DNA of 64,000 bases from Bacteroidetes bacterium GWF2_38_335 (GTDB taxonomy: Bacteria; Bacteroidota; Bacteroidia; Bacteroidales; GWF2-38-335): assembly GCA_001769535.1 (NCBI GenBank), contig MEOH01000010.1, forward strand, positions 62,001-126,000, in the 5' to 3' direction. The position numbers and the translations under genes were made by a program. Each line of letters starts with the position of its first letter. Within the stretch, counting starts at the first letter, position 1. A model generated the notes under the pieces. The model did not search any database. It was not told where the DNA came from and was given only the letters and a program-made list of their open reading frames with translations. Positions 2 to 18,241 of the stretch are shown one piece after another.

Positions 2-904
2 TCGGTCAGCTCAGGTTCCGGAATTATCAATACCCAGCCGGGATTCAAAATTGACTGGGGAAAATTATTGAAGATTTCATTTGTTTCTGCATTATATGCC
101 GATTCATTGGCAAAGATGTATTATTCAACAGTCGTACGTGAAAAGGAAAGTGGAATTTCCAGAATGTTGATGGATAAATACATTGCTGAAGCATATAAGC
201 CCGTTAAAGAAAAAAATGTGAATCAACTTTTTTCTTTATTGAGAAAAGCGGTTGAGGATTTTAACCAGGTTCCTGTAAATGAAGGCATTTATCCTAAAAT
301 TGGCATTGTTGGTGAAATTTTTGTGAAATATAATTCTTATGGCAATTTAAATGTTCCGGAATGGCTAATAAATCAGGGAATCGAAGTTTGTGTGCCACCT
401 TTGATGGATTTCTTTACACAGTATTTTATCAATGTGGATGCTGATATTAAAACCGGAATGAAAAAGTATTCGTTATCAGATTTGTACCTCAGGTTTATTG
501 AACTGCGCGCAGATTTATTCGTTCAGAAAGCCGAGAAAATAAACAGGGATTTCAGATATTTTACGCCGTTCCATTCTATTCGCCGTATTTCCAGGTACGC
601 TGAGCGAATTTTAAGTATAGCCAATCAGTATGGCGAGGGATGGCTGATCCCGGCCGAAATTTCTGCTTTTGCCGAAGATGGTGTGAATAATGTTGTAAGT
701 CTGCAACCCTTTGGATGCATTGCCAATCAGATAATTTCCAAGGGGGTTGAAAAACGGTTGCGTGATTTTTATCCTGAATTAAATCTGCTCTTTTTGGATT
801 TTGATGATGGTGCCAGCGAAGTCAATGTTCACAACCGGCTGTATTTTATGGTAAGAAATGTAAAGGAAAATATCAGGAATTCACAACCTGTTATTTCCAC
901 TTAA
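2..904 (+). CDS. C-terminal part of acyl-CoA dehydratase activase-related protein (5' truncated)
   Basis: The frame is open from the first bases of the window, so this is the last 300 residues of a larger protein. A TTG at 68 could act as a start but continues an already open frame, so I treat the gene as cut by the window edge. The segment matches from memory the C-terminal part of the large activators related to 2-hydroxyglutaryl-CoA dehydratase (COG3580/COG3581, DUF2229 type): a KIGIVGEIFVKYN segment, then GEGWLIPAEI, then LQPFGCIANQ and a final DDGASEVNVHNR segment. In the full-length family, N-terminal ASKHA ATPase modules precede this region and transfer an electron with ATP hydrolysis to an iron-sulfur dehydratase. 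The gene converges on and overlaps the 3' end of the SpoIIE phosphatase gene by 14 bases. Family assignment is fairly firm; the substrate is unknown. Confidence 0.8.
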   Translation, partial: SVSSGSGIINTQPGFKIDWGKLLKISFVSALYADSLAKMYYSTVVREKESGISRMLMDKYIAEAYKPVKEKNVNQLFSLLRKAVEDFNQVPVNEGIYPKIGIVGEIFVKYNSYGNLNVPEWLINQGIEVCVPPLMDFFTQYFINVDADIKTGMKKYSLSDLYLRFIELRADLFVQKAEKINRDFRYFTPFHSIRRISRYAERILSIANQYGEGWLIPAEISAFAEDGVNNVVSLQPFGCIANQIISKGVEKRLRDFYPELNLLFLDFDDGASEVNVHNRLYFMVRNVKENIRNSQPVIST

Positions 905-3383
905 TCCCTAAAATGGTAATGTCATCTGTTTGTGGTTCGTTACCAATCCATTCGATAATTTTTGAATCAAGTTTTTCCTTTTGTTCATTCATGGGTTGAC
1001 CTGAAATGTCAATCAACATTTCCTTTAGCCGTTTGTACAGGAACTTTTTATTATTTGGTCCGCCAAACTGATCAGGATAACCATCGGTGATTAAATACAG
1101 GGCATCATCATTTTGCAGGGTAATTTTATGTGTGGCATAGTTTTCCATGTGCGAGTGAATGGCAACAGGCATTTTATCGCCCTTATATTCAATTAGTTCT
1201 TTGTTTCTTATCAGATAAAGCGGGTTGTTTGCTCCGGCAAAAACGGCAGTTTTTTTATCTTCATCAATTACAATCATCGAGATATCCATACCATCCTTAA
1301 CTGCAATAGATTGGTCGGCTGAGTTGGTTTGCTCGTCTTCGACTACATTCTGTTTTAAAGTTCTGATAATTTTTTCACGTAAATGATCCAGGATTTTCCC
1401 CGGATCGGTAATCTTTTCCTGAATGAAAATCTCGTTGATGAAAGTCATTCCGAGCATGCTTACAATTGCTCCCGGAACCCCATGTCCCGTGCAGTCTGCA
1501 GCAGTAATAAGTATCTTTTTTCCTGATCTCCCAAACCAGAAAAAATCGCCCGAAACAACATCCCGTGGTCTGAATAAAATGAAAGAGTCACTGAAAATAT
1601 TATCCAGCAACATCGGGTTTGGCAACACTGAATCCTGAATGAGCTTGGCATAATCGATACTTTTTCTCAAATCTGAATACATTTCATCAAGAAGTGCCTT
1701 TTGAGTTGAAATTCGATCATTGGCGGCTTTTAGCTCAACATTTCTGATTCGCTCTATTTCTGCTTCCTTTTCGGCTTTTTCAACAGAATATCCTACCTGC
1801 TGTTTTTTTAATTTATTGAATGTTTCGTTATTGATGACTTCCTCTTTGATATTATGAAATTCTTTGAAATGATAGTAGGCATCAAAATGATTACCTGTTT
1901 CTTCAAGCGCAAGAGATAATTGGTAATGTATCTGATACTGGACCGGCTTTGTGTTGATGGTTTTTGAAATTTCAAGTGCGTTTTGGAGCAGGATCAATGC
2001 TTCTTCATATTTTTTTCCTGAAACCAGAAGTTTCCCTTTTCCCAGCAAACAAATAAGGTTGGCCTTTTGGTCATTTGTCTGAGCTGTAATCTCAATGGCT
2101 TTCTGATAGTAACTGATGGCTTTATCGAATTCACCGGATTCTTCGCTCATGCTGGCCATTCCAATATAAGACCATGCCAGAGCGCCTTTGTGACCAAGTT
2201 CGGTCCTGATTTCAATACTTTTATTGTAGTTTTCTTTTCCCTTTTCAAATTCTTTTTTTAATGTAAAGGCCCTTCCGATCTGGTTATAGGATGCAGCCAT
2301 ACCGGGTTTATCATCATTTTTTATGCGGATATTAAGGCATTTTTCAAAATATTGCAGTGATTCATCCAGATCTGATATACGCATGAATAGAAAACCGGCC
2401 TGACTGTAATAATCGCTCAGAAGGGTTTCATCATAATGTTTGCCTTCAATCAGTTTTAAACCAGTAATTACACAGTTGATCCCTTCGTGGTATAATCCGT
2501 ACATGTCAAAATAACCCGCTTTTACCAAAAGGGTTTTGATAATACCTCCCGTATCGGATGTTTGTCTGAAATAACGATGAATGGTGGATAACAATTCAAG
2601 GTTACTTTCATCATCTTTTGCCTGAATAAGCTCAATAGCCTTACAGTAAAGCAATGCAAAATTTTTACCCCTCAGGTATTGGATGTTTTCAGATTCATCG
2701 GCAAGTTTTAACGCCCTTTCATATGATAAACCAGATTGTATGTATCTGTTTTTCCAGATATCATCAAGGATTGACTCACTTTCACGAATCTTTTCAGCTT
2801 TTTCATTGGTTAAAAAAACATCAGCAATAGCGTGATGCGACCAGTAATCATCAGATTCGGCATAATCTGAAGCCGATTGAAATTCTTTTAATGGAATGGC
2901 AGGAGCATATTCACCGGGAAAAATGGTAACAATTTCATGACCGTTTTCTGCATTTTTTAAAATCACATGAAAAGTATCGGTGATTTTAAACTTGGGTGAA
3001 TTTATTTTTTTTACCGGCTCTCTTACAGCTATTGCAAGTTCTTCATCGGAACCGGTTATGTCAATGATGTTGTCAATGCCTAATCCCGGAGTAAAATCGG
3101 GAAAGGAAAAAGAGTAAACATGGGGTCCGTATTTGTTGGAGAAATTTCCTGCCGAAATATTTTCTTTTATCAGAATAAACAGCTTTTCGGGTGAGGAGCA
3201 GAAATAGTGGAAAAATTTTGATCCCGGATTTTTCATTGCAGAAAAAATGGCTTCTTTATCAAACCCCTTCGAGATCAAATACACAAGATAATCATTATCA
3301 ATACTGTAAAAATGTTTCAAAATATGAAACTGTCTTTCAATACTGAATGAAATAGTATTGTTTTCCTTGTTCTGGTTTTCCAT
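891..3383 (-). CDS. TPR-repeat protein with C-terminal SpoIIE/PP2C-type serine phosphatase domain
   Basis: 830 residues. The start is the ATG at 3383 (MENQNKEN), 4 bases after the stop of the WG-repeat gene; an upstream ATG at 3563 lies inside that gene and gives implausible sequence. Layout: an N-terminal region of about 170 residues I do not recognise; TPR-like helical repeats at about 280-510; a coiled coil at about 520-574 rich in Lys, Glu and Arg; then a SpoIIE-type PP2C phosphatase domain from about 575 to the end. The phosphatase shows SGDFFWFG, AADCTGHGVPGA (metal Asp near 630), LITDGYPDQFGG (Asp near 767) and the final TDDITILG (about 820), so the metal-binding acidic residues appear intact. 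No signal peptide or membrane helix is visible, so it should be cytoplasmic. It is the last gene of the STAND-STAND-WG operon and is a candidate output enzyme that removes phosphate from Ser/Thr of a partner such as an anti-anti-sigma protein (inference). Confidence 0.85.
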   Translation of the reverse strand: MENQNKENNTISFSIERQFHILKHFYSIDNDYLVYLISKGFDKEAIFSAMKNPGSKFFHYFCSSPEKLFILIKENISAGNFSNKYGPHVYSFSFPDFTPGLGIDNIIDITGSDEELAIAVREPVKKINSPKFKITDTFHVILKNAENGHEIVTIFPGEYAPAIPLKEFQSASDYAESDDYWSHHAIADVFLTNEKAEKIRESESILDDIWKNRYIQSGLSYERALKLADESENIQYLRGKNFALLYCKAIELIQAKDDESNLELLSTIHRYFRQTSDTGGIIKTLLVKAGYFDMYGLYHEGINCVITGLKLIEGKHYDETLLSDYYSQAGFLFMRISDLDESLQYFEKCLNIRIKNDDKPGMAASYNQIGRAFTLKKEFEKGKENYNKSIEIRTELGHKGALAWSYIGMASMSEESGEFDKAISYYQKAIEITAQTNDQKANLICLLGKGKLLVSGKKYEEALILLQNALEISKTINTKPVQYQIHYQLSLALEETGNHFDAYYHFKEFHNIKEEVINNETFNKLKKQQVGYSVEKAEKEAEIERIRNVELKAANDRISTQKALLDEMYSDLRKSIDYAKLIQDSVLPNPMLLDNIFSDSFILFRPRDVVSGDFFWFGRSGKKILITAADCTGHGVPGAIVSMLGMTFINEIFIQEKITDPGKILDHLREKIIRTLKQNVVEDEQTNSADQSIAVKDGMDISMIVIDEDKKTAVFAGANNPLYLIRNKELIEYKGDKMPVAIHSHMENYATHKITLQNDDALYLITDGYPDQFGGPNNKKFLYKRLKEMLIDISGQPMNEQKEKLDSKIIEWIGNEPQTDDITILGIKWK

Positions 3384-3387
3384 TTTA

Positions 3388-6300
3388 CTACTCTTTACTT
3401 GTTTTTTGCCCAAGTTTGTTGATGTAGAATTCCTGATTGTCCATCTTAACCAGAGCTTTTCCATTGACAAAGTTTTGGGCATAATCAAACTGGATGGGAA
3501 TAACCTCTTCGCCAAGAATATTGATATAGCCGTATTTTCCTTCCCATGAAAATGAAGTTTCATTGTATTTTCCGATAAACACTAAAGCCATGCCTTCCGA
3601 AAAATCAAATACCTGATCATATTTTATAGGGATGACTAAATTACCATCTTTATCAATGAAACCATATTTTCCGATATATGGATCACCTTCCTGCAATTCT
3701 CCATTGAAAGCCATAGCAAATCCATCTTTAAAATCACCTGTATAATCAACCATGATTTTTGGATATATTTCTTTTCCTTCTTTATCGATATACCCGAATT
3801 TTCCTGTTACCGGATTCCCTGAATAATTAAGTTCTCCTTTGAAAAACCTTGCGTAACCTTCATGAAAATCATAAACAACGTTGTAATCGGGTCTGCATTT
3901 AATCACCTCTTTTCCCGTATGGTCAACAAATACAAATCTGTTCGAGCTGGTGTTAGCGCCGGTATTGCTTAATTCTCCTAACATCGCTCTGGCCATTCCA
4001 TCTGAAAAATCATACACGTTAGTGTAATTTCTTTCGCATGGAATCACCTCCTTACCCGCTTTGTCTATAATACCATATTTTCCCTCACTTGTGTAACCGT
4101 ATGTGTCAATAGTTCCCTTGAATACCCATGCGTATTCCTCTGAAAAATTGCGCACAAGGTCGTAATCAAGAATACATGGAATGACTTCTTTGCCTGTTGT
4201 GTCAATAAATCCTGTGAGATTGAATTTTTTTATCTGAGCCAGGCCATTTGTAAAATATTCAATAGATGAATAAATACAAGGAGCAATCACTATCCCGCTT
4301 GTTGTAAGAAGTCCGAATTTACCGTCCTGCTGTACCAGTGATATTCCATTATGAAAATATTCATTTATTTCACTGTAAATACAAGGAGTAACTTCTTTAC
4401 CTGCTTTATTGATAATTCCATATTTTTCATCTTTTTGAACCTTTGCGAAACCATTTTTAAAAATCTCTACCAGGGTGTAATCCAGATTGCAGGGGATAAC
4501 TTCATTGCCGAGGGTATCAATAAATCCCCAAAGCAATTTTTCTTCCTTGTCACCTTGCGATTTCTCAATAATATTGACAGGAGCCATCCCTTCATAAAAG
4601 TAGCCAATGGAATTGTATTTGGAATCTAATGGTATAATTTCTTTTCCATTTTTATCTACATAGCCATATTTGCCTTCTTCGAAGTAACCTGTTTCACTCA
4701 TTTTTCCCATAAAAACACGAGCCATATTATGCTCGTTGAAAGTTTCAACATAATCGTATTTGCATGGAATAACTTCTTTTCCTTTAAGTGAAACCAGTCC
4801 GTATTTTCCTGTTTTAGGACTTCCGTAAGTATCTGTTTCACCAATAAATGCCTGTGCGATATCATCATAAAAATAGCCAATGTAATTATATTTACATGGG
4901 ATAATTTCTTTTCCGCTTTTATCAATATATCCAAATTTACCTCCTTTGTAATATCCGTACTCATCAAAAGATCCGTTGTAAACTTTGGCATATCCATCCA
5001 TAAAATCCTCAACTTTTGAATATTTTAACTTGCATGGAATCACTTCTTTTCCGTTTTTATCAATAAAACCTGTTTTTCCCTCACCCAAAGACCCGTCATC
5101 ATTGACTTTTCCGGTGAAAACCCGTGCCAGCCCTTCATTAAAATCAAATACATAATTGTATTTAAGGTTGCAGGGTATCAACTCTTTGCCTTCTATATCG
5201 ATAAAGCCATATTTTCCTCGTCTGGGGGTATTGTTTTTTGCATCACCATAAAAAACACGTGCCATATCATTTGAAAGAGTTCCTATATAATCATATTTGG
5301 GTTCGATTAAAACTTTTCCCTGGGTTGTGATTAATCCATTTTTTCCCTTGTCAGGTGTCCCCGATTCGTTTAGATCTCCCTTAAAGGAAATATAAATTCC
5401 GGTTGTGAAATAGCTGAGATTATCGTATTCACATTTGATAACTTCTTTTCCGGTTTTGTCGATATACCCGTATTTTCCCTTTAACGGAGTTCCGTAATCA
5501 TTCAGGCTTCCATTAAAAACACTCGCTATTCCTCCAACAAAATCAAATGCATAATCATATTTGCAAGGGATGATTTCCTTGCCTTCATCTGTTATAAATC
5601 CATATTTTCCATTTGATGGAGATCCGTATTCATCTGTCTGGCCAATGAATACCTTGTATGCTTTTTCATTGGGATATCCAATATTAACGTATTTACATGG
5701 GATAACTTCTTTACCGGTTGAATCTATATATCCGTAAAGTCCTTTTAGCGGTACTCCATATTCAGATAATTCTCCCTTGAAAACCATAGCGCGGCCTCCA
5801 TAAAAATCATAGGCGTAATCGTAAATGGCCTGAGTTAGTAATTCTCCCCTGAAATTTAAATATCCGTATTTTCCGATTAATGGTGATCCGTAATCACTCA
5901 ATGTGCCCTCAAAATAATTAATTATTCCTGAACCGGGAGCAGATAAATATTGATATTCACATAATATCACCTCAGTTCCTGTTGTATCAATATACCCGTA
6001 TTTCCCGGAAAGGGGAGATCCATACACGTCTGTTTGGCCGATGAATACTTTTGCCAATCCATCTGTAAATACATCAATATAATTGTATTTACATGGTGTT
6101 ACTTCAATTCCTCTTATATCAATTAACCCGTAAAAGCCTTTAATCTTATTTCCAAGGTCGTCAATTGTTCCTTTGAAAACTTTGGCGAATCCGTTTGAAA
6201 AATCCTCTGCATAGTCATATTTTCTTGTTAAATCCAATACAACTTTACCCTTTTCATTAATATATAAGTAGTTTCCTTTAACCGGATTGCCATAAACCAT

Positions 6301-8427: not shown

Positions 8428-11124
8428 TTACAAATTTATACTGAATTTATTTTTTTCCGATGTGTTCAGGTCATCATATTTGCCTGAAGCCCTGAATTGA
8501 AGATAACCTTCTTTCTTCCACGATTTCCCGGATGTGTTGATCCGGTCAAGGTCACTTTCTCCAAGATGCCAGCTTCGAATGGTCTTATCCTTCGAACCGG
8601 TGATGATGCTTTTTTTATCGGGCGAAAAACCAATAAAAGAAACAGCTCCAAGGTGACCTTTCATTTCATATATCAGTTCTTCCTTTTGACTCCAAATACA
8701 AATACTGCCTGTATTGGTGCCTGTTATGATGAATTTTCCATCATTGGTGGTGGTTACAAAGGTTACGGGTGAATTGTGTTTAAATACATTTAACTTTCTG
8801 CCCGAAAGATCCCATAAAACGGCTGTTTGATCATCCGAAGCACTTAGAATCTGCTTGCCGTTTGGATGAAAATTCAGACAATTGATTTTGCCTGAATGAT
8901 TGATTACCTTCACAAAACCTGTCGGTGTTTGATCCCACAAATATCCGGCATTACCCTGACAAACAACCAGAAACTCGCCATTTTGTGAAATTCTTGAATC
9001 GGTCACCGTGCTTGTAGTCTTCGCCTGAACTGGCTTTGCACTTTTTAAACCTGTAAGATATACAGTCCCATTCTTTCCTCCAATTAACATCATGTCTGAC
9101 TTTTCACTGTATTCAATGGATACCGGTTCAAAATTTAATTTTAAGGTATTGATCAATTCTCCTGATTGATTCCAGGTCTTCACAGACATATCTGATAAGG
9201 CGGCAACAATATAACTGTCAGTTATTTTCATGCTGTTAATTGTTGCTCCGTCAGAGGAGATATCTTTAATTTTTACTCCTGCTGATGAAAAAACTTTTAT
9301 GGAATTGTCTGTGCCTGCGCAAAATATTTTTGATCCGTCAGAATTAATGGCTGCAAAACCGGATGAGCCTGTATTTTGATTTAAAGTCTGATAAAACACA
9401 TGCCTTGCATATATGCTGTCTCTGATTTCAAGAGAATAGGAATTTGTCGGGTCAATCATCAGTGCATATTCTGCCAGTCTCAAGGCTTTTGTCGGATTGC
9501 TATTTATATAATCCTTGGCCATATTGGTAAGAAAAAGGGCTTTGGTTTTTTTCTCCTGCGACAACGCTCTTACTTCATTGACCTTTGATTGCTTATAAGC
9601 CGATTCCACTTCTTTTTTCTGGCTTTCCAACTGTACGTTTGATGTTTCAAGTTCTGCCTTGGCATTATCAGCCTCCTTTTTGGCCTCAATGGCTTTTTGT
9701 TTTTCCCGGTTGGCCAATTTTTCATTTTCAAGAGCAATCTTTTCTTTTTCCATTGCTTTGGATCTTTCGTTGAGGGCCCAGATTGAAAATCCGCTAAAAA
9801 TTGCCAGCAACAGTGCCATCAGTATTATCAGCCAAATACGACGCCTGCGTTTTGCTTTTTCGGCTTCTCTTTTACTCTTGAAAATAAATTCATTCAGTTG
9901 CTCATTGAGAAAAATCTTGCCTTCATAAGGGGCAATATAGGAAAGGTCATTTTTGTTTAGTAAAATCTTCCTTCTCAGGAAATTGTCGTAGGCATTTTCA
10001 ATGAACTGCCTGACTTCCAAAAGCTCTTTTTCAACAAGAGTGATTTTTTCATAAATTTTTGACGCAAGTGCATCATGCCGCAATTCATAATGGCCGCTTT
10101 CATCCTTATCCCTGAGAATGCGTAAATTAATGAACCGCTGAATCAAATCGCGCAGGGTTTCTATGCTCAGGTTTTTGCCTAAAGTACGGCTGTAATCCAG
10201 AACTTCTTCCTCGGTAATCTGTCTTTTTGTGCCTTTAGTCGAGACAAAAGCCTTTAATGCCACAAGGGCTGTGTCGGGGTCGGGTAGAAGTACAATCTGC
10301 TCTTCAAGAAAACTACCGAGTAAGTCCTTAACCTCGCCGGTTTTTTTCAATTGGGCTAAGGTGAATTTTGGTGACTGTCCGGGGTTCTCGCTTTTTGCAA
10401 CTTTAAAAAGTTTATCCAGAAATACCTGCAGGTAGGTGAGTTCCACATCAACACCTTCCGGCGATAACCTTTCTAGCAACTGATCCGAAAAGCCCGGCTC
10501 AATGTCAATGCCTGCAAAACGACACGGTCCCTCAATGGCATGCTGGGCATTGCTCCGAGTCATTTTTTCAATCCTGATGCGGTTTGCCAGAAATGTGGGT
10601 ATCTGTTTTTCAAATTCTGTGATGCCTGCCAGATATTCTTCCCTGATAACAAACAAAAACCTGCATTGTAAGTCGCTTTCGGCCACTTCTTTAATGGCTT
10701 TTATAAATTCCTCTTTTTCGGTTTTGCTCCCGAAAATAAACAACTCTTCAAATTGGTCAAAAATCAGGTAAACAGGCTTGAAATGGTCAAGGTAAAGTGA
10801 TCGGATTCCCTTCTTCAACCACCCGTCTTTTGCGGTGTTAAGGGTAAACGGGGTAATGGCTGCGGCAGAAAGTGAGCGGGCCAGACTTTCAGTCATGTTG
10901 CCTCCCCTGCGGATGTTTACCGGCAGCCAGTCCGACTCCGAAAATTTGCTGGCCAAACCGCAATATATGAGGGATGATTTCCCCGTTCCTGAAATTCCGT
11001 AAACCAACAGAATCTTGCTTTCGAAAATCTTTTGGTATAGTTCTTCTATCTCACGGTCACGCCCAAAGAAAATCTCTTTGTCTTCTTTTGTATAACTGTC
11101 GAGGAACTTGAAGGGTGATGTCAT
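8428..11124 (-). CDS. Membrane STAND NTPase (nSTAND1-like) with WD40 repeats
   Basis: 898 residues. Order of parts: STAND P-loop NTPase at about 1-370 with Walker A GISGTGKSS at 43-51 and Walker B-like LIFDQFEELF around 120-129 (Asp123, Glu126/127); a helical region; one transmembrane helix at about 430-451 preceded by KAKRRRR; a coiled coil at about 452-525 rich in Lys, Glu and Ala; then WD40-like beta repeats from about 580 to the C-terminus, with several repeats ending in W-D or W-S. The positive-inside rule puts the NTPase in the cytoplasm and the WD40 domain in the periplasm. STAND NTPases act as signal-gated switches that oligomerise on sensing a ligand. The NTPase half is strongly similar to the gene just upstream (same MTSPFKFLDSYTKEDKEIFF start). 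The start is the ATG 16 bases after that gene's stop. Sensor ligand unknown. Confidence 0.88.
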   Translation of the reverse strand: MTSPFKFLDSYTKEDKEIFFGRDREIEELYQKIFESKILLVYGISGTGKSSLIYCGLASKFSESDWLPVNIRRGGNMTESLARSLSAAAITPFTLNTAKDGWLKKGIRSLYLDHFKPVYLIFDQFEELFIFGSKTEKEEFIKAIKEVAESDLQCRFLFVIREEYLAGITEFEKQIPTFLANRIRIEKMTRSNAQHAIEGPCRFAGIDIEPGFSDQLLERLSPEGVDVELTYLQVFLDKLFKVAKSENPGQSPKFTLAQLKKTGEVKDLLGSFLEEQIVLLPDPDTALVALKAFVSTKGTKRQITEEEVLDYSRTLGKNLSIETLRDLIQRFINLRILRDKDESGHYELRHDALASKIYEKITLVEKELLEVRQFIENAYDNFLRRKILLNKNDLSYIAPYEGKIFLNEQLNEFIFKSKREAEKAKRRRRIWLIILMALLLAIFSGFSIWALNERSKAMEKEKIALENEKLANREKQKAIEAKKEADNAKAELETSNVQLESQKKEVESAYKQSKVNEVRALSQEKKTKALFLTNMAKDYINSNPTKALRLAEYALMIDPTNSYSLEIRDSIYARHVFYQTLNQNTGSSGFAAINSDGSKIFCAGTDNSIKVFSSAGVKIKDISSDGATINSMKITDSYIVAALSDMSVKTWNQSGELINTLKLNFEPVSIEYSEKSDMMLIGGKNGTVYLTGLKSAKPVQAKTTSTVTDSRISQNGEFLVVCQGNAGYLWDQTPTGFVKVINHSGKINCLNFHPNGKQILSASDDQTAVLWDLSGRKLNVFKHNSPVTFVTTTNDGKFIITGTNTGSICIWSQKEELIYEMKGHLGAVSFIGFSPDKKSIITGSKDKTIRSWHLGESDLDRINTSGKSWKKEGYLQFRASGKYDDLNTSEKNKFSINL

Positions 11125-11140
11125 ATAATAACTTTATATT

Positions 11141-13216
11141 TTAATCAATACTGAAAATGATTCCGTTTAGATATCGTTCCTTGCCATCTGGAGCCATTGC
11201 TTTTATATCTGAAATAAAAATATCCTGACCTTTTTTAAGCTGTTTAATGGCTTTAATCTGACTTTCATTAAAAGTTGAACTTTTAGATTCAATACAGGTA
11301 AATAGTCCGTTAACTTCAATCATTAAGACGAATCCTGTTACTGAATATTTTAAATCAAATACAGAATTTTTTATTTCAGCAATTATTCCTGTATTATTAA
11401 GCAATTCTTTTTTTGATATTTTCCCGCCTTTTTTTTCACATAAAAACGGTTCCGGATCAGGAATTCGATAAACACGAAAACCCATTCTCCCAATAGGCGT
11501 AAAAGCAGTATCTTCAGGGCGATATCTAATGGATACATTTATATAACACAACTGATTTTCTTGCTGAGGGAAGATAATATATTCGGTATTATTTGATCCT
11601 TTTTTCAGTTTGCCGCCGGTTGTAGAAACGTAAACATCTTCAGCGCTGAATCCCGGTACTGCCACTGTTATCGGATTATCGATGCCTAAATATAAAACAT
11701 TCATTTTTGTAGCAGAAATAACTGCCGAAGGCGGGCCTTTTTTCACTAATCTTAAGCTGTCAGCCTCCTTTTTAGCAACATCCGCTTCATTAATAGCTTT
11801 TAATGCTTTTTCCTTTTCTATAAGTGCAGTTTTTTCATTCTCTTTTGCTTTAGTTCTTTCATTCAATGCCCAAAATGTAAACCCCGATAAAACAACAAAT
11901 AATAAAATAGCCGCAGATACTGCAAAGGTTCTTTTTCTACGTTTTATTTTACTAAGCATCCTGCGGCTGTCATTAATAAAGCTGATAAGTTGCTCACTTA
12001 GAAACATTTTATCTTCATACGGAGCAAAATAACTGAGGTCTTTGGTTGATAGATAAATTTTTCTTCGCTGGTAATTATCAAAAGAATTTTCAATAAACTG
12101 TCTGACTTCAAGAAGTTCTTTTTCAACCAGACTGATTTTCTCATAAATTTTGAGAGCAAGAGCATCATGCCTTAATTCAAACCGGCCACTTTCGTCTTTG
12201 TCTCTTAAAATCCTTAAAGATACAAAATGCTGAATGAGTTCACGCAGACGTTCTGCTGATAAGTCTTTACCTAAGGTCCGGCAAAATTCAAAAACCTCAC
12301 TTTCTGTAATTTGTCTTTTTGTTCCTTTTGTTGAGACAAATGCTTTTAGTACGGCCAGACCAATATCAGGATCGGAGAGTTCTGAAATCTGATCATCAAG
12401 AAATGAACCCAATAAATCTTTTACATCACCTGTTTTATCCAATATAGCATGAGTGAATTGTAAATTATTTCCGGTTTTTTCGTGTGAAACAAGTTTATAA
12501 ATTTTATCAAGATAAACTTGCAAATATGTAAGTTCAATTTCATTGCTGTCGGGCGAAAGTTTATTCAGTAACTGATCAGAAAATCCTTCTTCAAGTTCAA
12601 TTCCTGAAAATTTACAGGGTCCCTCGACAGCCATTTTTGCATTTAGCCGTGACATTTTTTCAATTCTTACCCTGTTTGCCAGAATAGAGGGTATGGTTTT
12701 TTCAAATTCAGTAATTCCGGCCAGATATTCTTCCCTGATAACAAAAACAAACCGGCATTGCAAATCGCTGTCAATTACATCCTTGATTAGTTTGACGAAT
12801 GCTTCTTTTTCAGATTTGCTTCCAAAAATAAAGAGTTCTTCAAATTGATCAAAAATTAGAAAAACTGGCTTAAAATGATCAAGATATAATGAATGCAATG
12901 CTTTTTTTAGCCAACCTTCTTTTGAAGAATTTATCTTTAAGGTGGTGAGAGATAGAGCAGAAATTGATCTTTCAATGCTCTCGGTAATGTTTCCGCCCCG
13001 CCTTATATTTACAGGCAGCCAGTCGCTTTCTGAAAACTTCCCTGACAGTCCGCAATTAATAAGAGATGACTTTCCGGTACCCGAAACGCCATAAACCAAT
13101 AATGTTTTATTTTCAAAAACCTTATGGTATAATTCCTCAATTTCCTTATCGCGCCCAAAGAAAATCTCCTTGTCTTCTTTTGTGTAACTGTCGAGAAATT
13201 TAAAAGGCGATGTCAT
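11141..13216 (-). CDS. Membrane STAND NTPase fused to a GldM/PorM-like C-terminal domain
   Basis: 691 residues from the ATG at 13216, chosen because it aligns with the start of the paralogue (MTSPFKFLDS); a TTG at 13237 would add seven residues. The N-terminal NTPase has Walker A GVSGTGKSS at 43-51 and a LIFDQFEELF Walker B. A basic stretch (KIKRRKR) and one transmembrane helix follow at about 430-450, then a short coiled coil. From about 494 the sequence leaves the paralogue and resembles the last two periplasmic domains of GldM/PorM: SATKMNVLYLGIDNPITV at the start, then FRVYRIPDPEPF, GGKISKKELL, then DIKAMAPDGKERYLN at the end. GldM/PorM is the proton-driven motor protein of gliding and T9SS, whose periplasmic domains reach the GldK/GldN ring. 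Carrying these domains on a STAND switch is very unusual. This is the first gene of the operon. Confidence 0.87.
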   Translation of the reverse strand: MTSPFKFLDSYTKEDKEIFFGRDKEIEELYHKVFENKTLLVYGVSGTGKSSLINCGLSGKFSESDWLPVNIRRGGNITESIERSISALSLTTLKINSSKEGWLKKALHSLYLDHFKPVFLIFDQFEELFIFGSKSEKEAFVKLIKDVIDSDLQCRFVFVIREEYLAGITEFEKTIPSILANRVRIEKMSRLNAKMAVEGPCKFSGIELEEGFSDQLLNKLSPDSNEIELTYLQVYLDKIYKLVSHEKTGNNLQFTHAILDKTGDVKDLLGSFLDDQISELSDPDIGLAVLKAFVSTKGTKRQITESEVFEFCRTLGKDLSAERLRELIQHFVSLRILRDKDESGRFELRHDALALKIYEKISLVEKELLEVRQFIENSFDNYQRRKIYLSTKDLSYFAPYEDKMFLSEQLISFINDSRRMLSKIKRRKRTFAVSAAILLFVVLSGFTFWALNERTKAKENEKTALIEKEKALKAINEADVAKKEADSLRLVKKGPPSAVISATKMNVLYLGIDNPITVAVPGFSAEDVYVSTTGGKLKKGSNNTEYIIFPQQENQLCYINVSIRYRPEDTAFTPIGRMGFRVYRIPDPEPFLCEKKGGKISKKELLNNTGIIAEIKNSVFDLKYSVTGFVLMIEVNGLFTCIESKSSTFNESQIKAIKQLKKGQDIFISDIKAMAPDGKERYLNGIIFSID

Positions 13217-13272
13217 TTTTTCTTTATTTATCAGCAACCTGAGTTAATACTTGCTTTTTTTCATTTTCATCC

Positions 13273-13280
13273 GAAAATTA
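13273..13280 (-). promoter_or_regulatory. Possible -7 element for the STAND-WG-SpoIIE operon
   Basis: On the minus strand this reads TAATTTTC, one base from the Bacteroidota -7 consensus TAnnTTTG, and lies about 57 bases upstream of the first operon gene. No TTTG is seen at the expected -33 position, so support is weak. Confidence 0.25.
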
Positions 13281-13497
13281 CATATAAAAATGGAATTATA
13301 GTATAAAATCCATTGTTTTTGTCATCATGCATTTCATATTCAGGGAAAGATTAATTCATAAAATGAAAATTATCCGATATTTTTTATTTTTTAGTTTATT
13401 TCCGAAAATTATGTAATTTCGAACAATAAAATCAAGCGTTATTCTCTTGATGATTATAGTGTGGAAACAGTTTTATGGATGGCCGGTGATATTATTA

Positions 13498-14295
13498 ATG
13501 CAAAATATTATAAATAAAGTAACAAGAAAAAGGAGAATAGTTTTTTTATTGTTGGTATTAATTATTTATAGTAGTTGCTCTGATTTAAATAATGAAAAAA
13601 CTATTGAAAATCCAAAAAAAGCTATTGACGATAATATAGCAGATATAAATCACCAAATGTCATCTGATGAGAGAGTTTTTGTAAGCAGGGAAGATTCAGT
13701 TGGAAATAGAATGGAAGGGGATTTGATTAATAGCAAAAAACATGGTGTGTGGAAGTTTTATTCTGTTAAAAATATACTTGACTCTGTCAATTTTTATCGG
13801 GGTGATACAGTTTATTTAAAACTTGATAAAGATGATTATAATTGTGAGTTTATTTCAATAAAGAATAAATACAAAGTGTCGGTTCCAAAAAAATGGAAAA
13901 TTGAAAACAGTGAAAATGAAAATGTTTTGTTATCATTATTTAAAAATTGTAATGATAGTTTTAAACCTGTTATAACAATAACATATGAAAAAAACAATTT
14001 TAAATCATTTAAGGAATATATTGAAAATTCAATATATTCACTTCAGAATAAGCCATATTTTAAAGAATTATTACAATCAAATTTGACTAAAATAAATAAA
14101 AATCAAGCTGCCTATGTTTCTTTCGAAATTATTGTGAATGAAGAAATAGCTGGTGTACTTGCAATTTTTATTGATATTAACAATGAAATATTTGTTTTTA
14201 CAGGGACAGCCTTTAATGAACCAAAAGGTGAGTTTCTAAGATATAAAGTGGTGTTTGAAAAAATTGCGGAATCTTTTTCCCCATTGGAAGATTAA
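13498..14295 (+). CDS. Lipoprotein with a MORN-like motif and PsbP/DcrB-like domain
   Basis: 265 residues from the ATG at 13498. An ATG at 13447 in the same frame would put a long non-signal stretch before the lipoprotein signal, so I prefer the later one. The lipobox is IIYSSC with the lipidated Cys at 27, so it is predicted to sit in the inner or outer membrane, facing the periplasm. Residues about 60-75 read GNRMEGDLINSKKHGVWKFY, a MORN-variant (YwqK-like) unit. The rest, from KYKVSVPKKWKIE to the C-terminal FEKIAESFSPLE, has the pattern of PsbP/DcrB-like alpha-beta proteins, a fold of unclear role in these bacteria. The gene is strikingly AT-rich and diverges from the STAND operon. Function unknown; fold assignment tentative. 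Confidence 0.65.
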   Translation: MQNIINKVTRKRRIVFLLLVLIIYSSCSDLNNEKTIENPKKAIDDNIADINHQMSSDERVFVSREDSVGNRMEGDLINSKKHGVWKFYSVKNILDSVNFYRGDTVYLKLDKDDYNCEFISIKNKYKVSVPKKWKIENSENENVLLSLFKNCNDSFKPVITITYEKNNFKSFKEYIENSIYSLQNKPYFKELLQSNLTKINKNQAAYVSFEIIVNEEIAGVLAIFIDINNEIFVFTGTAFNEPKGEFLRYKVVFEKIAESFSPLED

Positions 14296-14335
14296 CCTTG
14301 AAGATATGTTTTATATTAATCGTAATTCTCAAGTC

Positions 14336-14692
14336 ATGAAACATATAGTATTTATGTTATCTGCATTTTTTTTTATATTCACAAATGCCCAATCCACCCT
14401 CTTCATTAGACACTACACCTCCCCCCAAACCTCCTATTCCCTGGAAGATTTAAGTAAAATCAATTTTTCCGGTTCAGAAATGAATGTCGAAAAAACCGGG
14501 GGAGAAATATGTGTTTCACCTCCAATTAAAGACTCAATAAAAATTTTTTCCCCTTCTGAAGGAGAACGCTATCATGTATATATAACCACAGATTCAATAA
14601 TCTCTTTTAAAAGTAAAGGTCTAACAGATTCAACTGTAAGGTATTATATCCATATTATAGACGGGAAAACAACTGTAACAGAAGTTAAATAA
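14336..14692 (+). CDS. Small secreted protein, chimeric copy of the module in the 16.0 kb gene
   Basis: 118 residues from the ATG at 14336, chosen because it gives a signal peptide (MKHIVFMLSAFFFIFTNAQ); an in-frame ATG at 14255 lies within the previous gene. Mature residues to about 60 match the gene at 16020, including FSGSEMNVEKTGGE, and the DNA is identical over 36 bases (14464-14499 versus 16148-16183). After that the two diverge: this copy lacks the T9SS sorting domain and instead ends in a short predicted beta region (SIKIFSPSEGERYHVYITTD and onward). It looks like the product of recombination or partial duplication. The N-terminal segment resembles the one preceding many FISUMP or T9SS proteins. 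Function unknown. Confidence 0.6.
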   Translation: MKHIVFMLSAFFFIFTNAQSTLFIRHYTSPQTSYSLEDLSKINFSGSEMNVEKTGGEICVSPPIKDSIKIFSPSEGERYHVYITTDSIISFKSKGLTDSTVRYYIHIIDGKTTVTEVK

Positions 14693-14702
14693 TTTATAAA
14701 AT

Positions 14703-15695
14703 ATGAAAAATGTAATTATTTTTTTTGTACTAACTTGTTCTGCTTTTCTATTTATCTCAATTGGTTCTTGTGGAAAAAAAGCTACTATCAAAAAAGAGCT
14801 ATCAAAAATAGTTGTTTATAATGAAAATAATAAAGAATACCAAGTTGGATGTTTTGATAATAACAATAAAGCCCAAGGAGTTCATGCTTTTTTTGATGAA
14901 AAATTTAATATAAAAGCAATATATGAATTTAAAGATTCAATTTTGAATGGTTATTTTATTTCTTTTTCAAATGACAGTAATATTTGGGCGGAAGGGACTT
15001 TAAAAAATGGTGTTGAATGCGGCACAAAAATTGAGTATTATCAAAATTCTATGGTTTATCAAATATCGTATGTAGATACTTTGAAAAATAAATTGTATTT
15101 GTATCAATATAACCCAAACAATTCATATTCAATACAAGAGTATTGTTTTTTTCCAAAAATAAATAGGTATTTAATAAATTGTTTTTTATCCATAAAAGAC
15201 AATGATACGTTGGATAATAGTTTATATTATTCCTTAAAAAAAGAGGAAAATGAAAAAATCAAGATCAAGCTTCAATTTTCATTGAATACTTTTAAAATAT
15301 CTGAAAATGAGTTAAGAAATAAGGACTATAAAATCCTTATTAAAAATAAAAATTATTTAGATACAAAATATTCATTTACAGATAATGAATACATTTTTGA
15401 AGACATAAAAGATAGTATTTTCAGTCAATTTAATAGTAATCCTTTCGATTATGAGTTTAAAGGAGAGCCAGATAAATTTATTGCTATTCTTTCATTTGAA
15501 TACAATAATCCCGTTGATTTAAGAGCCATTCCCTCATTTTTCTTGTTTATTAATGGAGATGTTTTAATGCACATGAAAAATTTTTATAATGATATTGTTT
15601 TACCAAATATTAATATTAATGGTAAATTAAAAGAAAGAAAAGAACTTGAAAAATGGATATCTATAAACAGAAAATTTATAAAGTTATTTTTATAA
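14703..15695 (+). CDS. AT-rich lipoprotein with MORN-variant repeats
   Basis: 330 residues. A signal peptide with a lipobox-like ISIGSC puts the lipidated Cys at 23. Residues about 45-120 contain two to three YwqK/MORN-variant units (QGVHAFFDEKFNIKAIYEF, NGYFISFSNDSNIWAEGTLKNG and CGTKIEYYQNS). The remainder is Asn-, Lys- and Ile-rich and not recognisable. Local base composition is very AT-rich (single lines near 15.24 kb and 15.36 kb are about 20% G+C), well below the neighbouring housekeeping genes. It starts 10 bases after the preceding gene and is probably co-transcribed. MORN-variant repeats are found in surface proteins, effectors and immunity proteins; nothing here decides among these. 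Confidence 0.65.
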   Translation: MKNVIIFFVLTCSAFLFISIGSCGKKATIKKELSKIVVYNENNKEYQVGCFDNNNKAQGVHAFFDEKFNIKAIYEFKDSILNGYFISFSNDSNIWAEGTLKNGVECGTKIEYYQNSMVYQISYVDTLKNKLYLYQYNPNNSYSIQEYCFFPKINRYLINCFLSIKDNDTLDNSLYYSLKKEENEKIKIKLQFSLNTFKISENELRNKDYKILIKNKNYLDTKYSFTDNEYIFEDIKDSIFSQFNSNPFDYEFKGEPDKFIAILSFEYNNPVDLRAIPSFFLFINGDVLMHMKNFYNDIVLPNININGKLKERKELEKWISINRKFIKLFL

Positions 15696-15862
15696 CTCTA
15701 TTCTTATTTATCACATTGATTTATATAAAATTAATTAATTTATTAAGTATTTTGTTGCTATTTGCAAAAACAATTTCCGTTGAAGAGCGATTTATTAAAA
15801 GAACTCATTTAAGATATTTTATTAGTGAAAATAATTTAAATCCGGATGATTTTGGAATATGA
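15653..15862 (+). CDS. Possible small membrane protein
   Basis: 69 residues overlapping the end of the previous gene by 43 bases in another frame. It has a long hydrophobic segment at about 9-38 (IYKVIFITLFLFITLIYIKL and onward) and a short polar tail. In such AT-rich sequence a hydrophobic frame can arise by chance, so I include it only as a possibility. Confidence 0.3.
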   Translation: MDIYKQKIYKVIFITLFLFITLIYIKLINLLSILLLFAKTISVEERFIKRTHLRYFISENNLNPDDFGI

Positions 15863-16019
15863 TTTTTATAAAAATTTAATTATTATTTTAAATAAAACCC
15901 AATTTCAGACAATAATACTGAGTAAGTTAAAACGACAAGTCTGAGGGGTGGAGTTTGTCATAAAATAATTTTTGGAATTGAAATATTTATATAGTATTTT
16001 TAAAACTTATTTATATGTC

Positions 16020-16508
16020 ATGAAAACTCTGTTATTTATTTTTGCGATTTCTTTTGTTTGTATAGTAGAGGCTCAATCCAGCCTATTCGTAAGACAATAC
16101 AGTTTTCCTCAAACAGCATATTTTCTGGAAGATGTAAGCAAAATCAGTTTTTCCGGTTCAGAAATGAATGTCGAAAAAACCGGTGGAGAAGTGGATGTGT
16201 ATAACCTGTCGGATATCCGTTACCTGAATTTTGAAAACCTGGCTACAGAAAATGAGGCCCGGGAGGAAATTGAAAGTACAGATGTCAGGTGCTACCCCAA
16301 TCCGGTCAAAGAAACCCTGAATTTTGAATTTGCAGATCAGGAAAACCATAAAATTGAAATAATTGATTTTCAGGGAAAGTTGGTTTATGTGGTTGAAATG
16401 AACGGAGAAAATGCAAAAGTAAATTTCTCAGGTTTTCCGAAAGGACTGTATCTCTGCCGTATTTCGAACGGAAACAACACAGTAACAAAAAAAGTCATTA
16501 AAAATTAA
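16020..16508 (+). CDS. Small secreted protein with T9SS type A sorting domain
   Basis: 162 residues from the ATG at 16020, which begins a good signal peptide (MKTLLFIFAISFVCIVEAQ); an upstream TTG at 15972 is disfavoured. A short N-terminal module (LFVRQYSFPQTAYFLED, then ISFSGSEMNVEKTGGEVDV and DIRYLNF) is followed by a C-terminal T9SS type A sorting domain of about 75 residues (CYPNPVKETLNFEF, then IIDFQGKLVY, GLYLCRIS and a final KKVIKN). The sorting domain directs export through the Por system and anchoring or release at the cell surface. It contains little besides the module and the sorting signal, so it may be a minimal surface adaptor. It is followed 13 bases later by the FISUMP gene. 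Confidence 0.75.
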   Translation: MKTLLFIFAISFVCIVEAQSSLFVRQYSFPQTAYFLEDVSKISFSGSEMNVEKTGGEVDVYNLSDIRYLNFENLATENEAREEIESTDVRCYPNPVKETLNFEFADQENHKIEIIDFQGKLVYVVEMNGENAKVNFSGFPKGLYLCRISNGNNTVTKKVIKN

Positions 16509-16521
16509 ATAGCAACAAACC

Positions 16522-17247
16522 ATGAAATATTTAACCGGTGTATTTTTATTAATAGTAATATTTGCCATAAACAGCAAAGCCCAGGATACATTGTACATAT
16601 ACCAGTCAGGCGAAGTAGTAGTCAAACGGGCTGTTAGTGACATAGACAGCATTATTTTCTATCAGCCCGCCATACCCGAAACAATAACCGATATCGAAGG
16701 CAATATTTACATAGTCGTGACCATAGGAACCCAAAAATGGATGGCTGAGAATTTAGCAACCACCCACTTGAATGATGGCACGGAAATACCTAGTATTATT
16801 AATAGTACCTTTCCGTCGTATTTATATTATAATGATGATTCAGTTGCAAATGCAGCAACTTATGGTGTTTTATATAATTGGCCGGCAGCTAATTCTGGAA
16901 ATCTTTGCCCCTCAGGATGGCATGTGCCTACCGATGCTGAATGGACAGTGCTCACAAATTACCTTGGTGGTTTGACTGTAGCAGGAGGTAAAATGAAAGA
17001 AACCGGAACAGCCCACTGGAATAGTCCGAATGCCGGAGCAACTAACGAATCTGGATTTTCAGCCAGACCAGGAGGCCGGTTCGCAACAGGATTTGCTAAT
17101 ATGGGAGTTGAAGGAAATTGGTGGTCAAGTACAGAAGATTCATCAAGCACAGCATGGATGAGGTTAATTACCTCTTTTATGGACGATGTCAGCAGAAGTT
17201 CTAATAACAAAGTCTTTTTCTTATCAGTCAGGTGTATTGAAGATTAA
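16522..17247 (+). CDS. FISUMP-domain secreted protein
   Basis: 241 residues with a signal peptide ending near NSKAQ. After a short N-terminal strand-rich stretch (DTLYIYQSGEVVVKRAVSDI), residues about 65-240 form a Fibrobacter succinogenes major paralogous (FISUMP) domain: IGTQKWMAENL, YGVLYNWPAA, LCPSGWHVPTDAEW, GFSARPGGRF, NWWSSTE and a final VRCIED. These domains resemble C-type-lectin or formylglycine-enzyme-like folds and occur in surface proteins of Bacteroidota and Fibrobacteres; biochemical roles are not established. No C-terminal T9SS domain is present, unlike the neighbour. It is probably co-transcribed with the small T9SS protein before it. Confidence 0.85.
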   Translation: MKYLTGVFLLIVIFAINSKAQDTLYIYQSGEVVVKRAVSDIDSIIFYQPAIPETITDIEGNIYIVVTIGTQKWMAENLATTHLNDGTEIPSIINSTFPSYLYYNDDSVANAATYGVLYNWPAANSGNLCPSGWHVPTDAEWTVLTNYLGGLTVAGGKMKETGTAHWNSPNAGATNESGFSARPGGRFATGFANMGVEGNWWSSTEDSSSTAWMRLITSFMDDVSRSSNNKVFFLSVRCIED

Positions 17248-17318
17248 AATCGGGAATTACTTAATAATAAAAAACAACTTGAAAAAGGGGCGCTGTTTCA
17301 TTTGCATTTATCTACTCC

Positions 17319-17523
17319 GCCCCAAAGGGGCCCAAGCACCAGCACAGGGAACCGCCCTGTGAAAAAAGACATTAAAGGGCGCGAGAATTGAAAATCATAC
17401 AGGTAATTAAGCTCATTCAGAAGAAAATTTTCGAAAAACTCCGAAGGAGTTCCCCAACCATTGCCACGGATTTCAATCCGTGGGCGTGCCCTTGATAATT
17501 ATTATGAATAATGATAATCAAGG
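17319..17523. repeat. Cluster of short perfect palindromes (REP/MITE-like)
   Basis: The non-coding gap between the FISUMP and ORF6N genes holds a run of perfect short inverted repeats: GCCCC-AAA-GGGGC (17319-17331), CACAGGG/CCCTGTG (17343-17361), AACTCC-GAA-GGAGTT (17437-17451), CCACGGATT/AATCCGTGG with a 2-base loop (17464-17483) and CCTTGAT/ATCAAGG (17490-17523). A related set occurs at 50.8-51.1 kb, where the first two motifs appear in reverse order. They are G+C-rich compared with the surroundings. They look like dispersed extragenic palindromes. Confidence 0.7.
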
Positions 17524-17540
17524 CCATGCAAAAGCGGCCA

Positions 17541-17548
17541 TACCTTTG
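17541..17548 (+). promoter_or_regulatory. Perfect -7 element directly before a hairpin
   Basis: TACCTTTG matches the Bacteroidota -7 consensus TAnnTTTG. The A6TCCC...GGGAT6 hairpin starts 10 bases further on, so any transcript would meet a terminator-like structure at once. No -33 TTTG is visible. Confidence 0.3.
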
Positions 17549-17557
17549 TGCCTGGCC

Positions 17558-17588
17558 AAAAAATCCCAATTTAAAACAGGGATTTTTT
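17558..17588. terminator. Bidirectional terminator-like hairpin
   Basis: A 10-bp perfect stem, AAAAAATCCC (17558-17567) and GGGATTTTTT (17579-17588), around an 11-base loop. The T-run follows on either strand. It would end transcription coming from the FISUMP gene region. Confidence 0.6.
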
Positions 17589-17670
17589 AGATGAAAAGAA
17601 AAAAGAAACATAAAATCACCTCTTATTTTTACGAATAATAAATATAATTTAGTTAATAAAAGAAATTTAT

Positions 17671-17678
17671 TAATTTTG
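17671..17678 (+). promoter_or_regulatory. -7 element for the ORF6N gene
   Basis: TAATTTTG fits TAnnTTTG. It lies 18 bases before the ATG at 17696 and overlaps the alternative GTG at 17678, which supports the later ATG as the start. Confidence 0.45.
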
Positions 17679-17695
17679 TGGATAAATATTATTTT

Positions 17696-18241
17696 ATGAA
17701 AGAGGATAAGATGATTTTACGAGAAGCTATAATAGCAAGTAAAATCATTACTATTAGAGATGAAAAGGTAATACTTGATGTTCATTTGGCTGAACTATAT
17801 GAAGTTGAAACAAGGGTTTTAAAACAAGCTGTGCGTAGGAACAAAGATCGGTTTCCATACGATTTCATGTATGAACTTACTGATGCTGAAATAGATGAAA
17901 TGGTATCACAAAATGTGATACCTTCTAAAAGACATTTTGGCGGTGCTGTTCCTTTTGCTTTTACAGAAAATGGTGTTGCTATGCTTTCAAGTGTCCTTAA
18001 TAGTAAAAAAGCAATTGAAGTTAATATTTCAATAATGCGAACTTTTACAATTTTAAGAAAAATGATTTTGCTAAATAAAGATATCATGGAGGAAATAAAT
18101 AAAATCAGAAAGCAAATGCAGGAACAGGGCCATAACATCATGCTGATTTTTCAGTACCTCAAGCAATTTGAAGAAAGCAAACAGCAAAAAACAGAACAAG
18201 AAAATCGGAAAAGAATAGGATTTAAAACAGACCCTAACTAA
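17696..18241 (+). CDS. ORF6N domain DNA-binding protein
   Basis: 181 residues from the ATG at 17696; a GTG at 17678 overlaps the predicted promoter, and an ATG at 17711 is also possible. Residues about 10-95 form an ORF6N (KilA-N-associated) domain: ILDVHLAELYEVETRVLKQAVRRN, then RFPYDFMYELT, then FTENGVAMLSSVLNS. The C-terminal third is a coiled-coil-like helical tail rich in Lys, Gln and Glu. ORF6N proteins come from phage and plasmid gene pools (phage antirepressor relatives) and are common as solitary genes in Bacteroidota genomes. Molecular role is unclear; DNA binding is assumed from the family. It converges on the next gene with an 8-base overlap of the 3' ends. Confidence 0.85.
   Translation: MKEDKMILREAIIASKIITIRDEKVILDVHLAELYEVETRVLKQAVRRNKDRFPYDFMYELTDAEIDEMVSQNVIPSKRHFGGAVPFAFTENGVAMLSSVLNSKKAIEVNISIMRTFTILRKMILLNKDIMEEINKIRKQMQEQGHNIMLIFQYLKQFEESKQQKTEQENRKRIGFKTDPN

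Follow-up and report, generated by a model that had tools for sequence, protein, structure and literature searches.

In a stretch of 64,000 nucleotides from Bacteroidetes bacterium GWF2_38_335 (contig MEOH01000010.1, positions 62,001 to 126,000; hereafter the window), two adjacent genes encode what their sequences indicate to be paralogous membrane-spanning nSTAND1 proteins, receptors A and B, built on one chassis and fitted with different sensors. Our best explanation, to which we assign a probability of roughly 0.55, is that the family to which they belong combines exchangeable periplasmic sensors with an nSTAND1 chassis and uses a separate partner gene as the effector.

Receptors A and B share the N-terminus MTSPFKFLDSYTKEDKEIFFGRD, and their genes are separated by 16 bp on the same strand. 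Alignment of the two proteins gave 70% identity across 450 chassis residues, with divergence after the membrane helix; identities in successive 40-residue segments up to residue 480 were 0.88, 0.88, 0.57, 0.80, 0.78, 0.62, 0.55, 0.72, 0.78, 0.75, 0.45, and 0.61, and the segment just past residue 480 gave 0.32. The nSTAND1 domain (PF20703) was matched in the two receptors at 147.1 and 144 bits, against a curated Pfam cut-off of 27.1. The C-terminal part of A was identified by Pfam as WD40, and that of B contains GldM_3rd (PF21602, 62.9 bits, cut-off 25.2) and GldM_4th (PF12080, 66.6 bits, cut-off 24.6) and matched the PorM crystal chain 6ey5 by phmmer (E 1.6e-19). The original prediction, made from the letters of the window, had described a common start, closeness through the membrane helix, and a split into WD40 and GldM-like domains, all of which agree with these measurements. 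P-loop residues GxSGxGKS are kept across the chassis alignments, and a single membrane helix follows the NTPase (nucleoside triphosphatase) domain in both receptors. From the charge pattern, with more positive charge ahead of the membrane helix in 40 of 40 family members, we infer an N-in/C-out topology that would place the NTPase inside the cell and the sensor outside it, in the periplasm. The full-length structural model of receptor B was poor over the sensor (predicted local distance difference test score, pLDDT, of 30–73 by block), and the NTPase part alone was used.

A scan of a genome collection yielded at least 79 chassis loci, the closest of which, among the matches listed, belong to Bacteroidota. 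In other samples, searched at E<=1e-70, 18 of the 393 genomes sampled from the order had the chassis, as did 16 of the 395 sampled from the class; a pattern search of viral contigs gave 128 matches, none of which was confirmed as a chassis relative. The C-terminal parts found in the family include WD40 and other propellers, GldM domains 3–4, FGE-like sensors, and TPR-like regions (G and L numbers below denote genomes and contigs). Receptors with GldM domains 3–4 occur in the window and in G099, G115, G126, G090, and G219, and FGE-like sensors in G090 and, by eye, in G219; a distant family member has a C-terminal part resembling WG plus LRR. Several WD40 and GldM versions, as judged by eye, have a TPR-like tail in common, which suggests that in those versions the middle part was exchanged between two common ends. 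Receptors A and B have no such tail.

That sensors change independently of the NTPase tree is well supported by these comparisons. With C-terminal domains mapped on a tree of 55 NTPases, four separate label changes were needed to account for the four GldM-bearing rows (shuffled mean 3.9), and NTPases tended to cluster by genome rather than by sensor. A GldM-type receptor (L057) thus grouped with a propeller type (L072) at support 100/100, and the NTPase of another GldM type (L085) fell beside that of a WD40 type (L077) with weak support (95/16). GldM and propeller copies in G099 have NTPases that are 93% identical and grouped at 100/100; the DNA identity of this pair is 0.83–1.00 along the chassis and about 0.4 past the membrane helix. 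Pairs in G099, G102, and G103 show this pattern of high DNA identity along the chassis and about 0.4–0.6 beyond it, and G105, G125, G126, and G090 contain short stretches of 92–100% DNA identity, with stretches near 56–60% also present in G105 and G090. Sensor swapping on a shared chassis, as originally suggested, accords with the four changes in the tree and with the G099 pair. We propose that the chassis of copies within one genome are kept alike by recombination such as gene conversion.

Some loci of the family are unusual in structure. FGE-type and GldM-type receptors of G090 lie in tandem (L044, 5376–8629, minus strand); the GldM copy has lost the middle of the NTPase, yet over the first 60 codons its DNA matches that of the FGE copy at 99% identity. 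A receptor NTPase of G047 (L045, 2486–6211, minus strand) carries three in-frame inserts of about 27 codons, with palindromic ends and starting DPQGHL, which look like small mobile palindromic elements within coding sequence. Contigs of many draft genomes end inside the chassis, as expected for near-identical repeats; the tally took in chassis breaks from both sides but sensor breaks from only one, and it carries no weight here.

Judged by its profile match, receptor B is not itself a GldM. Its score to the GldM equivalog TIGR03517 was 110.4 bits, below the cut-off of 180, the match covers only the last part of the profile (positions 319–519 of 524), and the source genome has its own GldM elsewhere (L051). 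Module phylogenies show uptake of the GldM module by receptors on more than one occasion, in that a single clade of receptor-borne modules was rejected by the approximately unbiased (AU) test in three trees. The first included five receptors, G126 among them (p-AU 0.025). The second had 48 rows, of which five receptor rows were tested (G000, G090, G099, G115, and G219; p-AU 0.013); the row named GldM_G126 in this tree is in fact the G126 receptor and stood outside the tested set. The third, reduced tree had four receptors and was made without GldM_G126, three further long rows, and six GldM rows removed as similar; it agreed with the other two (p-AU 0.036). The receptor module of G115 was sister to the GldM of that same genome (98/90 in the 48-row tree, 96/94 in the reduced tree), and the G090 module was placed in one clade with the GldM of its own genome, that of G219, and two standalone modules (98/93, reduced tree). 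The module of receptor B is closest to a pair from G047, with 42% identity and support of 97/58 in the 48-row tree and 84/51 in the reduced tree, and is just 31% identical to the GldM of its own genome. Standalone modules also arise beside the resident GldM, as in G027 (96/99) and G047 (99/95), both in the reduced tree. PF12080 is near universal in the order (348 of 393 genomes), and the score-ordered list of its matches did not reveal fusions. The source genome itself contains three tandem pairs of short proteins made up of GldM domains 3–4 and a signal peptide recognised by eye, with no obvious partner.

The second element of the system is the partner gene, which encodes a protein of about 345 residues. 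Of 65 family receptor starts, 36 have it immediately upstream, with a median gap of 15.5 bp; six of the other starts follow another receptor, six are at contig ends, and 17 have other surroundings (two contigs, L062/L197 and L079/L206, were each entered twice among the 65). The partner was upstream of none of 25 control nSTAND1 starts, 24 of which had room for it and one of which was at a contig end. The partner of the window is the only homologue found in the source genome and is 61–73% identical to most of its close relatives.

The motif RN-x3-H is present in 39 of 41 standalone partners and in none of six long, fused ones (Fisher p 2.6e-6; two of the 47 rows are near-duplicates). The extra domains of the six long partners are a caspase in two cases (Peptidase_C14; one assigned by similarity to the caspase part only), CHAT in two (one of them tested), an AraC-type helix-turn-helix in one, and a domain without a Pfam name in one. 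An AlphaFold2 model of the window partner (pLDDT 87) has helices first and strands after, and places the near-invariant R169-N170-x3-H174 between two helices. As described in a section of the HEPN survey, the RNase motif of that superfamily is Rx4-6H with a polar residue after the arginine, and the partner motif matches this description in form and position (PMC3710099). The motif points to a HEPN-type ribonuclease (RNase), and RNA cleavage would be the predicted activity. The best Foldseek row for the partner, the COMMD-like protein 9q6a, was discarded as not significant (E 0.019, TM 0.11). In a KSB1 metagenome-assembled genome (L097, 6250–17440), two long partner genes stand in tandem, each ahead of a receptor, with CHAT in the one tested.

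We envisage the following working for the system. The chassis would consist of a cytosolic NTPase, a single membrane helix, and a short coiled segment, with the C-terminal sensor in the periplasm. The usual family unit places a cytosolic partner gene ahead of one receptor or several; in the window an AT-rich segment comes between the partner and the receptors. Sensing, of a ligand or of altered envelope machinery, would take place in the periplasm, and the signal would pass through the membrane helix to the NTPase, which would oligomerise in an NTP-dependent manner. The oligomer would switch on the partner, a putative HEPN-type RNase by virtue of its RN-x3-H motif, with growth arrest or cell death as the outcome. 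Some relatives have a motif-less partner fused to a caspase or CHAT domain, and in these the added domain would be the effector instead. The steps after topology are modelled on the behaviour of STAND and HEPN families elsewhere.

Several observations weigh against this proposal. Seventeen of the 65 family starts, including that of receptor B in the window, have neither a partner nor a receptor within 700 bp upstream. The partner scored above the cut-off of no Pfam family, with no HEPN match, and its fold gave no Foldseek match at E<=0.001; chains of Csm6, HepT, and YutE, which we take, in part after PMC3710099, to be HEPN-type, matched it with Z-scores of only 6.5, 5.3, and 5.3 among many unrelated rows and did not stand out. 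The fold searches as such tell neither for HEPN nor against it. The contrast in the motif between standalone and fused partners may partly reflect ancestry, the motif-less fused partners also being divergent. No system model of PADLOC-DB 2.0.0 fits A, B, or the partner; receptor A covers 79 of the 1972 positions of HEAT-ARM_XIII, and A and B each give a weak match to mad8. A gene for a TPR plus SpoIIE phosphatase near the receptors offers another output than the partner, and nothing in the analysis demonstrates a role in defence.

The base composition of the two receptors bears on their history. The GldM version had been thought more AT-rich over the NTPase, and its G+C content there is indeed 0.356 as against 0.442 in A, with values at third codon positions (GC3) of 0.283 and 0.481. 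Among 450 aligned third positions, G or C occurs in A only at 136 and in B only at 50 (binomial p 2e-10); the corresponding counts are 96 and 33 for the 316 residues identical in A and B, and 37 and 16 for fourfold sites. The total codon-usage distance between the two NTPase halves is, however, ordinary, with 47.6% of 105 pairs of chunks from other window genes at least as distant. The other window genes have a mean GC3 of 0.364 (standard deviation, sd, 0.069), which puts A at +1.7 sd and B at −1.2 sd, both within the window range, and the codon-usage outlier is the NTPase half of A, not of B (1.135 versus at most 1.071 in 24 window gene chunks). The suggestion that composition reveals separate origins was not supported: A and B share a clade with three G099 copies (99/98), and a G/C excess of the chassis runs through the family. 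In 33 of the 34 family genes with adequate sequence in both regions, GC3 is higher in the NTPase than in the C-terminal part of the same gene (mean +0.123). For an earlier collection of 38 open reading frames, one of them a duplicate, the step came to +0.106 and was positive in 35. The two copies may still differ in residence time, but the AT-rich segment bordering B says nothing about age.

A possible, if doubtful, source of this excess is GC-biased gene conversion between paralogous copies of the chassis. Such conversion is consistent with the step in 33 of 34 genes and with the controls, single-copy nSTAND1-WD40 proteins about 1030 aa long and in many cases from the same genomes, which show hardly any step (mean +0.018, n=25) and no 5' gradient. 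A smaller, mixed first control set had a mean step of +0.046 (n=8), and in paired genomes the family gene exceeded the control in 12 of 12 (p 0.0005). The excess is strongest in the first 180 codons of the chassis, and the 5' end is also where several paralogue pairs are most alike. Against such conversion, copy number explains little: with copies per genome read by eye, the step was +0.072 in 13 single-copy genomes and +0.121 in 17 multi-copy genomes, a trend (p 0.07) on which copy number was not accepted as the cause. Some single-copy genomes have a large excess (G027 0.26, G110 0.16), and a similar picture would follow from the import of AT-rich sensors or from selection on codon usage. A single-copy nSTAND1-WD40 protein of the control type occurs in many of these genomes (L049, L214–L243).

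A serious alternative, though one that we consider unlikely, is that the receptors monitor the envelope or secretion rather than serve in defence. They would follow the condition of the type IX secretion motor, or of the periplasm, and control genes by way of the TPR-SpoIIE phosphatase. The phosphatase gene lies two genes after receptor A, and such genes lie within 5 kb of 15 of 62 family loci and 16 of 25 control nSTAND1 loci. GldM domains 3–4 are also fused to an M56/BlaR1-like membrane receptor in G115 (L232, 4364–5863, minus strand), which indicates that the module serves other receptors too. The family-specific partner, however, is the motif-bearing gene and not the phosphatase, which is commoner beside control genes and was rejected as a partner specific to the family, and the caspase or CHAT domains in related partners suit killing better than regulation.

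Returning to exchangeable sensors with the partner as effector, a bolder form of this proposal would make receptor B an integrated decoy, which we regard as speculative and quite unlikely as it stands. GldM domains 3–4 would have been grafted more than once from the resident gldM onto a membrane switch resembling the nucleotide-binding leucine-rich repeat (NLR) receptors, so that an attack on secretion or gliding, for example by phage, would be felt in the periplasm and answered by a HEPN-type RNase in the cytosol. Sensor exchange on a recombining chassis would then be a way to keep up with changing attackers. In a passage of PMC5790014, domain 4 of PorM is reported to bind PorN by itself in a two-hybrid assay; a docking or decoy role of the GldM module is therefore possible. 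Part of PMC6867891 links the loss of gliding in F. columnare with phage resistance.

Improbable, lastly, is a plain old tandem duplication, in which A and B arose once, sensors were lost or gained long ago, composition reflects drift or codon bias, and no exchange is ongoing: A and B themselves would fit it (DNA identity of 0.64–0.78 in 60-codon bins to residue 420 with no recently converted stretch, an ordinary codon-usage distance, and a sister pair A+B not rejected at p-AU 0.31), but more recent exchange is seen elsewhere in the G099 pair and the near-identical stretches of G105, G125, G126, and G090, and GldM domains and WD40 are different folds, which divergence cannot convert one into the other.

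Positions of the receptors, the partner, and their neighbours in the window, and of the short GldM proteins of the source genome
Feature	Position	Strand	Remarks
Receptor B, 691 aa: nSTAND1 NTPase, membrane helix, coiled segment, GldM domains 3 and 4	11141–13216	−	
nSTAND1 NTPase of B, residues 4–354	12155–13207	−	Pfam
Membrane helix of B, residues 433–451	11864–11920	−	N-terminal side predicted cytoplasmic by positive-inside rule
GldM_3rd (497–582) and GldM_4th (586–687) of B	11156–11728	−	Pfam; phmmer to PorM; predicted periplasmic
Receptor A, 898 aa: nSTAND1 NTPase, membrane helix, coiled coil, WD40 propeller	8428–11124	−	
nSTAND1 NTPase of A, residues 4–355	10060–11115	−	Pfam
WD40 region of A, about residues 592–883	8476–9351	−	Pfam
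Partner gene ('helper'), 347 aa	18234–19277	−	RNEIGH at residues 169–174
Accessory genes, about 5 kb, between partner and receptor B	13238–18233	+	G+C 0.22–0.28 over 13001–16000
Protein with 37 WG repeats, 1670 aa	3388–8400	−	27 bp after receptor A; possible link by adjacency
TPR plus SpoIIE (PP2C-type) phosphatase	891–3563	−	Two genes after receptor A
Short GldM 3–4 proteins	L052 4526–5808; L053 3411–4714; L055 2748–4052		

The accessory segment, which is AT-rich in its part next to receptor B, encodes a protein sorted by the type IX secretion system, a Fib_succ_major protein, and an ORF6N protein. The ORF6N-domain gene (17678–18238 of the window) adjoins the partner and matches the PADLOC candidate PDC-S05.

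Two features of the family appear to be new: membrane nSTAND1 receptors with GldM domains, a variation on known nSTAND1 receptors, and a motif-bearing partner gene that travels with membrane nSTAND1 receptors. No GldM-STAND fusion was found in the published literature searched, which lay outside most subscription journals, and a HEPN-type partner of nSTAND1 of the present kind was not seen among the matches listed or in the portion of PMC8195603 covered. A term search of the accessible parts of PMC7159879 and PMC10907252 did not find GldM. The closest likeness is to the nSTAND1 NTPases (PF20703) of conflict systems with effector-associated domains, which are resembled in the NTPase, well above cut-off, in the FGE-like and propeller sensors at the C-terminus, in the multiple paralogues, and in the caspase or CHAT that adjoins in some relatives. 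The present receptors differ in the membrane helix before a predicted periplasmic sensor, in the GldM 3–4 sensor, and in the distinct partner gene of about 345 aa. Sections of PMC10907252 describe nSTAND1-FGE targets with an effector-associated domain, and the duplicated nSTAND1-FGE targets of diversity-generating retroelement (DGR) 6 of Thiohalocapsa likewise are paired receptors whose C-terminal sensor is diversified; in that case, as described there, the change is targeted mutation within one sensor fold, whereas here whole folds are exchanged. Receptor B resembles GldM/PorM itself in domains 3 and 4, which both Pfam and the PorM crystal sequences recognise, but lacks the N-terminal part of GldM.

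The presence in one genome of a single signalling chassis with unrelated sensor folds makes the acceptance of a new sensor by a STAND switch directly open to study, and the partner family, with its HEPN-type motif, is a candidate effector open to assay. Plant NLR receptors with integrated decoys carry a host domain grafted onto an NTPase receptor of immune type, and receptor B, with its grafted host domain, would be analogous to them. If the GldM module is a bait, bacteria would join plants as users of integrated decoys, with the type IX secretion motor as a guarded target.
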